Below, piece after piece: positions 13,081 through 13,383 of a stretch of DNA of 49,559 nt. Source of the DNA: Candidatus Altimarinota bacterium (GTDB lineage: Bacteria; Patescibacteriota; Gracilibacteria; BD1-5; UBA6164); the NCBI GenBank assembly GCA_028696815.1, contig JAQVGG010000008.1:1-49559 (forward strand). Reading direction: 5' to 3'. The stretch's first letter is position 1, and each line of letters begins with the position of its first letter. The notes below the pieces were generated by a model, which made no database searches, had not been told where the DNA came from, and saw only the letters and a program-made list of their open reading frames with translations. The position numbers and the translations under genes were made by a program.

Positions 13081-13111
13081 AAAAAAAACCTGCGTAAAGC
13101 AGGTTTTTTTT
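13081..13111. terminator. Bidirectional terminator
   Basis: AAAAAAAACCTGC, loop gtaaa, GCAGGTTTTTTTT. It ends the small ORF on the plus strand and the tRNA-like unit on the minus strand. Confidence 0.85.
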
Positions 13112-13164
13112 GTGTTCTTTATAGGACATACATTATTTTTATTATGAGTCCTGTAAAGATGTAT

Positions 13165-13239
13165 TGGTCGGTGTGAGGGGATTTGAACCCCCGACCTCCG
13201 TACATTGTACGGCGCTCTACCGGGCTGAGCTACACTCCG
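13165..13239 (-). tRNA. tRNA-Pro-like RNA with an abnormal anticodon arm
   Basis: On the minus strand it has acceptor CGGAGTG/CACACCG (one A-A mismatch), a normal D arm (GCTC-AGCCCGGTA-GAGC), variable loop AGGTC, T arm GGGGG-TTCAAAT-CCCCT, discriminator A and encoded CCA. The CGG acceptor and body look like tRNA-Pro. The anticodon arm is only 15 bases, CCGTACAATGTACGG, two short of normal: it pairs as five base pairs around a five-base loop and has no U33 or readable anticodon. It may be a degenerate tRNA or a tRNA-derived RNA with another role. Confidence 0.65.
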
Positions 13240-13243
13240 AATC

Positions 13244-13330
13244 TGGTGGCTAGTGAGGTATCGGACCTCTTACTCTACAATTTTAGCAAGAATGCTAATG
13301 CGGGGGTTGTTGCTAAAAGAGAGCCTAGCC
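13244..13330 (-). ncRNA. tRNA-like structured RNA ending in CCA
   Basis: An 84-base minus-strand segment followed by encoded CCA. Ends GGCTAG and CTAGCC pair as an acceptor-like stem with discriminator A. Next to it is a T-arm-like hairpin GAGG-TCCGATA-CCTC. In place of D and anticodon arms there is one long helix, CTCT/AGAG plus TTTTAGCAA/TTGCTAAAA, capped by a 20-base loop. I cannot fold a standard cloverleaf or find an anticodon. It precedes the tRNA-Pro-like RNA by five bases and is probably co-transcribed. Confidence 0.5.
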
Positions 13331-13355
13331 GGTGAATGCTTTACTAGCAGATTGA

Positions 13356-13383
13356 AGTGTATATTTTTTGTTTGTTTTGTCAA
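13356..13383 (-). promoter_or_regulatory. Promoter of the tRNA-like unit
   Basis: Minus strand TTGACA (13383-13378), 16-bp spacer, TACACT (13361-13356), about 25 bases before the tRNA-like RNA. Confidence 0.65.

Follow-up and report, generated by a model that had tools for sequence, protein, structure and literature searches.

A probable retired tRNA-Pro isoacceptor, without anticodon, traced across four genera of bacteria that read UGA as glycine

To our knowledge, pseudo-tRNAs that are kept by selection are known from few bacteria. Staphylococcus sets glycyl tRNAs aside for peptidoglycan synthesis, and the rod formed by the acceptor stem and T arm, with its CCA end, is contacted by tRNA-processing and tRNA-binding proteins. 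The closest described case to RNA2, the main subject of this work, is tRNAOther of Bacillus cereus, a pseudo-tRNA for which a role as the tRNA-like element of a regulatory RNA has been proposed (PMC3399842). RNA2 is encoded together with a second tRNA-like RNA, RNA1, in the window, by which we mean the whole stretch of 49,559 nucleotides that was analysed, contig 4 of a genome bin of 1.19 Mb in 41 contigs. We argue that RNA2 is probably a redundant tRNA-Pro isoacceptor that was retired and exapted as a non-decoding, tRNA-shaped RNA, or "pseudo-tRNA". The open frames of this genome require that UGA be read as glycine, and a tRNA(UCA) of glycine type is present; this is code 25 of the Gracilibacteria/Absconditabacteria group.

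Both RNAs lie on the minus strand, in a unit that runs from a promoter (13383-13356) through RNA1, a spacer, RNA2 and a hairpin to a terminator (Table 1). The initial annotation of the locus had described two tRNA-like, non-decoding RNAs in one unit with a promoter and a terminator, and this description is supported: the TTGACA-16-TACACT promoter and the closing terminator are both found on reading the sequence, as is the 15-base anticodon arm of RNA2 without U33. Some details needed correction. RNA1 does have an acceptor stem, a T-arm-like hairpin, a CCA end and one long helix, but it is 87 nt long counting the encoded CCA, rather than 84, and 4 nt, not 5, separate it from RNA2. The acceptor ends, which had been called intact, do keep CCA, but RNA1 has only 6 + 4 bp and RNA2 carries one mismatch.

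Table 1 Features of the two-RNA unit, with positions in the window
Feature	Position	Strand	Basis
-35 hexamer TTGACA	13378..13383	-	sequence; similar promoter 13-19 nt 5' of eight RNA2 relatives and of the 136-nt RNA of contig C41
-10 hexamer TACACT, spacer 16 nt	13356..13361	-	sequence
RNA1, D-less tRNA-like RNA: 6-bp acceptor stem, long helix, T-like arm, A73, encoded CCA	13244..13330	-	
RNA1 long interrupted helix CTCTC-TTTTAGCAA / TTGCTAAAA-TTGT-AGAG, 20-nt loop with AACCCCCG	13273..13323	-	inverted repeat I17
RNA1 T-like arm GAGG-TCCGATA-CCTC	13255..13269	-	
RNA2, tRNA-Pro-like: C1-G72, A73, CCA, A4xA69 mismatch	13165..13239	-	
RNA2 15-nt arm replacing anticodon arm, CCGTA-CAATG-TACGG	13198..13212	-	5/5 stem pairs covary across RNA2 family
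RNA2 T arm GGGGG-TTCAAAT-CCCCT	13176..13192	-	
Hairpin TCTTTACAGGAC / GTCCTATAAAGA between RNA2 and terminator	13116..13159	-	inverted repeat I20
Intrinsic terminator CCTGC-TTTAC-GCAGG and T run, usable on either strand	13081..13111	-	

RNA2 is a cloverleaf of 75 nt that ARAGORN reports as "tRNA-Ile(aat)" and that scores 52 bits with the Rfam tRNA model RF00005; with the family model R1, itself built from RNA2 and six of its relatives, the score is 91.1 bits. The Pro-like body proposed by the initial annotation is borne out by comparison: among stretches fetched from bacterial and viral collections, 201 of the 208 matches with the acceptor/D-arm pattern of RNA2 bear a Pro anticodon (CGG or UGG). 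The window genome has a separate canonical tRNA-Pro(UGG), and other families of the class possess a second canonical tRNA-Pro, with the body CGGGGTGTAGCTCAGTTGGCTAGAGC and the anticodon UGG or CGG. In the simplest history suggested by these sequences, redundancy of the second isoacceptor would have been followed by loss of its anticodon in the family considered here. All ten members of the RNA2 family that we found have the cloverleaf body of a tRNA-Pro, with C1-G72, A73 and CCA (A4xA69 in the window copy), and none has the 7-nt loop with U33 and NGG that decoding calls for; their arms, which range from 15 to ~90 nt, contain no plausible anticodon. In 9 of the 10, pair 3:70 or 4:69 is not of Watson-Crick type. 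The family is tRNA-derived, as judged from the body sequence, and unable to decode, as a pseudo-tRNA should be.

The relatives come from four genera of a single UGA-glycine family, g1 (the window), g4, g11 and g14. In g4, the RNA occupies one locus in each of the five genomes in which the flanking gene could be located (G003, G072, G035, G029 and G021), and in g11 it lies beside polA in three genomes (G026, G076 and G010). Three g4 species carry a form of 103-104 nt, in which a hairpin of ~43 nt replaces the anticodon arm. G029 and G021 at first appeared to be without RNA2; the same site behind a VTT-domain gene, with a similar promoter and terminator, holds an RNA whose acceptor stem and CCA are the same but whose D region is remodelled and whose arm is long. 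The g11 forms are short-armed in G026 (76 nt) and G076 (74 nt), while the syntenic form of G010 measures 142 nt and has a branched arm. A promoter is recognisable upstream of 9 of the 10 members, in g4 and g11 as TTGAC(A/T)-15-TATA(A/G)T at 13-19 nt 5' of the RNA; a strict promoter scan found none for the g14 copy. Between the RNA and the terminator, the g11 genomes (L111, L112 and L386) have two hairpins each, with loops sharing UUACCG.

The family spans at least these four genera; its long-armed members score among ordinary tRNAs. A BLAST search with the whole unit against 60 relatives returned canonical tRNAs and just part of the RNA2 family, and in most other genera no candidate surfaced in searches that would miss long-armed members. 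In G018, no RNA2-type gene was present in the 1.2 of 1.34 Mb examined (89%), a weak match at an edge being tmRNA. A phage origin was rejected, phage matches being canonical tRNA-Pro only, and among 98 viral stretches with the body pattern the 80 that were read contained only canonical or interrupted/truncated genes and no odd-arm counterpart. No neighbouring gene is common to the RNA2 loci of different genera, and thus no partner is indicated. In the g14 genome (G067), the gene divergent from the RNA2 relative encodes a glycyl-tRNA synthetase, not ProRS (L113:5325-6725).

The variation in arm length bears on the idea that these genes encode intron-containing or edited tRNA precursors, in which the long arms would be spliced out as introns to give back a Pro anticodon. 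ARAGORN does model some of the long-armed members as intron-bearing tRNAs, but the anticodons that it implies (AAT, AGT and ATC) conflict with the RNA2 body, no U33-NGG can be assembled by eye from the g4 arms, and the 15-nt arm of the window copy and the arms of G026 and G076 are too short for an intron, although these genes are members of the one family. On arm length we reject this reading, which we regard as very improbable.

A more serious concern is whether the genes are decaying pseudogenes, that is, redundant and functionless tRNA genes on their way out whose promoters and terminators remain. RNA2 is dispensable given the canonical tRNA-Pro(UGG), its family is patchily distributed, and the acceptor stem is mismatched at pair 4:69 in both the window and g14 copies; several odd tRNA-like genes in the window genome (on contigs C41, C32 and C21) also look as if redundant tRNAs were degenerating. 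Against this reading stand the stems themselves. In an alignment of seven RNA2 sequences, hand-trimmed to line up the stems by shortening the loops and variable region, which favours structure, 98.0% of stem cells are paired (column shuffles give 84.5%, slid controls 40-62%), and both sides have changed in ten pairs, among them all five anticodon-stem pairs. For the acceptor stem and T arm alone, in eight sequences, 97.9% are paired, with double changes in six pairs, and in all ten members these stems are kept with compensatory changes. Such changes continue between close species after the loss of the anticodon: in a g11 pair with the loops CAAAAAA and CAAAA, neither with U33, two anticodon-stem pairs have changed on both sides (A-U to C-G and C-G to U-A).

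The three g4 sequences alone are too similar for significant covariation; here the RNA is 88-95% identical, the upstream intergenic DNA 55-70% and the downstream sequence 79-90%, although in one of the three comparisons the RNA, at 89%, is no more conserved than the downstream sequence (88-90%). Of the syntenic sites examined, eight across g4 and g11, every one has a folded copy with a promoter and CCA, and in the nearly complete genome G010 33 of 34 tRNA-like genes are canonical, the sole odd one that it keeps being the RNA2 relative. We consequently view decay as rather unlikely. The compensatory stem changes are a mark of maintenance by selection, and for RNA2 they support the claim of the initial annotation that the genes are in use. 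That annotation had also proposed a search of related genomes for the pair, which yielded relatives of RNA2 with a covarying counterpart of the 15-base arm and no homologue of RNA1; of the combination that it named as counting against use, a canonical tRNA-Pro elsewhere with decayed sister copies, the first half holds, while the sister copies keep compensated stems and are not decayed.

The conservation of the acceptor end also raises the question of whether RNA2 is still charged, perhaps with proline, or in some species with alanine, and delivers its amino acid outside the ribosome in the manner of the glycyl tRNAs of peptidoglycan synthesis. C1-G72 and A73, kept along with CCA throughout the family, are part of bacterial proline identity, and the alanine determinant G3-U70 is present in the G010 copy. 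However, bacterial ProRS needs G35 and G36 as well, and since both are gone in every member, ProRS is unlikely to charge these RNAs; the same holds in general for AlaRS, as the other nine members are without G3-U70. A transferase or synthetase was not found as a conserved neighbour. Such an aminoacyl donor seems to us an improbable function.

In RNA1, the acceptor stem of 6 bp (GGCTAG/CTAGCC) is followed by one unpaired A and a T stem of 4 bp (GAGG/CCTC), position 55 in the T loop TCCGATA is C instead of U, and the interrupted helix of ~14 bp stands for both D and anticodon arms. The fold has an energy of -25.7 kcal/mol (z of -3.6 to -4.0), which none of 200 shuffles equals. A descriptor that specified a paired acceptor stem, a T arm and CCA and left the middle free matched three times in 256 kb of the window genome, at RNA1, at a 136-nt RNA (C41) and at a 103-115-nt RNA (C32), and once in G010, at the RNA2 relative; it had no match in 1.03 Mb of shuffled sequence from the same genome and no unannotated match in 1.2 Mb of G018. 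As the descriptor was loosened after RNA1 had been seen, RNA1 is found by construction, and the weight lies in the empty controls. RNA1 and RNA2, the latter with homologues in four genera, are not chance structures. The RNA1 loop AACCCCCG is perfectly complementary to CGGGGGTT of RNA2 over 8 nt, a match reached by 1.5% of loop shuffles. The C32 gene (L017:1078-1192, minus strand) encodes a D-less tRNA-like RNA built like RNA1, with the acceptor stem GCTGGTC/GACCAGC, a T arm, U73-CCA and a long helix; the gene has a terminator of its own. Since no homologue of RNA1 was detected (plasmids were searched with RNA1 alone, viral contigs by pattern), we infer its function by analogy only, from predicted co-transcription with RNA2, fold, rarity and the D-less C32 RNA.

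The initial annotation had seen in RNA1 the tmRNA architecture in miniature, a comparison that is not supported. The RF00023 model gives 15.8 bits on this part of the window against a cut-off of 47, neither RNA has an evident tag ORF, and the G3-U70 pair is absent from both (C3-G70 in RNA1, G3-C70 in RNA2). A substitute for tmRNA is rejected in view of the normal tmRNA genes of the genome, which are two different ones in one bin (C28:22060-22518 and C5:117-562) and may reflect its contamination of 6.24%. One could also speculate that the T arm of RNA1 and the D arm of RNA2 form the tRNA-like module of one Ro60-bound RNA, a bacterial Y RNA of YrlA type, as there is a weak match of Rfam RF02553 over these arms (17.4 bits, E 0.38). 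This is far under the cut-off of 69 bits; a T arm before a D arm arises from any two tandem tRNAs, the relatives of RNA2 are solitary genes, and no TROVE (Ro60) domain was found in the genome. The Y RNA reading is already largely refuted, and we give it next to no credence.

The window genome holds further unusual tRNA-like genes. The 136-nt RNA (C41:5910-6045, minus strand; L029/L115) has D and T arms and ends in G73-CCA; its acceptor stem measures 7 bp, and a long helix stands where a tRNA has the anticodon loop. The gene has its own upstream promoter, TTGACA-16-TATAAT, and 77 genomes of the order contain no relative. A Gln-like tRNA with a 4-nt anticodon loop lies just 3' of tRNA-Gln(CUG) (C21, L063:265-339), and the 5' half of tRNA-Asn recurs, in part and altered, directly 5' of the real tRNA-Asn gene (C20, L397:4379-4460). 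A tRNA(CCG) with A1-U72, G73 and tryptophan-type identity (C31, L062:205-281), also present in G010 (L385) and G018, fits the reading of CGG as Trp reported for Absconditabacteria and some Gracilibacteria (PMC8629427). Tentatively, RNA1, RNA2 and the C41 and C32 genes might belong to a new class of small RNA in Gracilibacteria/Absconditabacteria, with these several genes in one genome. A fixed acceptor-T-arm rod would serve as chassis for a domain that evolves fast and replaces the D and anticodon arms, and the members would differ in acceptor stem and discriminator base; we put this forward as a possibility that we would not yet favour.

For RNA2 itself, the following course of events can be envisaged. 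A tRNA-Pro isoacceptor with the body type CGGGGTGTAGCTCAG..., which other families of the class retain in canonical form, would have lost its anticodon in this family and been retained as a tRNA-shaped non-coding RNA with, presumably, transcription from a promoter of its own. What is conserved is the rod of acceptor stem and T arm, together with C1-G72, A73 and CCA, presumably gripped by proteins that mature or bind tRNAs; the former anticodon arm, and in some species the D arm too, would have been freed as a structural domain that changes fast and still forms a hairpin. Most likely, although with low certainty, RNA2 would be a pseudo-tRNA that acts in trans as a regulator or decoy. The rod would perhaps let it be processed and stabilised like a tRNA and dock on a protein that binds tRNAs, while the specific work would fall to the variable arm; processing by RNase P, use of the CCA, a partner and a target are all presumed. 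In the window genome, RNA2 would be made together with RNA1, which is D-less and of the same general build. The pseudo-tRNA can be traced across genera with its stems conserved and its anticodon domain rewritten, and within two genera with its locus and promoter kept, in hosts whose genetic code is altered and whose tRNA sets are small; it offers a concrete, testable case of a redundant tRNA gene becoming a non-coding RNA. Annotation programs mislabel genes of this type as tRNA-Ile, tRNA-Phe or tRNA-Thr, which matters when codes are inferred from tRNA sets.

Compared with known systems, RNA1 is like tmRNA (RF00023) in that an acceptor/T-arm domain is joined to a long helix with no D stem, but it is 87 nt long, shows no evident tag ORF or pseudoknots and lacks G3-U70. 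YrlA (RF02553) shares with the RNAs described here a tRNA-mimicking module without a decoding anticodon, but its arms are in permuted order and its partner Ro60 is absent here. RNA2 agrees with tRNA (RF00005), and tRNA-Pro in particular, in its cloverleaf body, C1-G72, A73, CCA and D and T arms, and its family differs in having neither U33 nor a Pro anticodon, an arm of 15 to ~90 nt, and a D arm that is reduced or remodelled in G029 and G021. The Staphylococcus glycyl tRNAs are likewise isoacceptors removed from translation, but they keep the Gly anticodon for charging, whereas the RNA2 family keeps none. RNA2 resembles tRNAOther in being tRNA-derived, outside translation, beside a normal isoacceptor and with its own transcription, predicted in the case of RNA2 (PMC3399842). 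The Trp anticodon is retained in tRNAOther, whose gene lies at the flank of a genomic island (PMC3399842). In RNA2 the anticodon is gone and the length of the arm that replaces it is hypervariable; no island is seen, and species of one genus share the gene in synteny.
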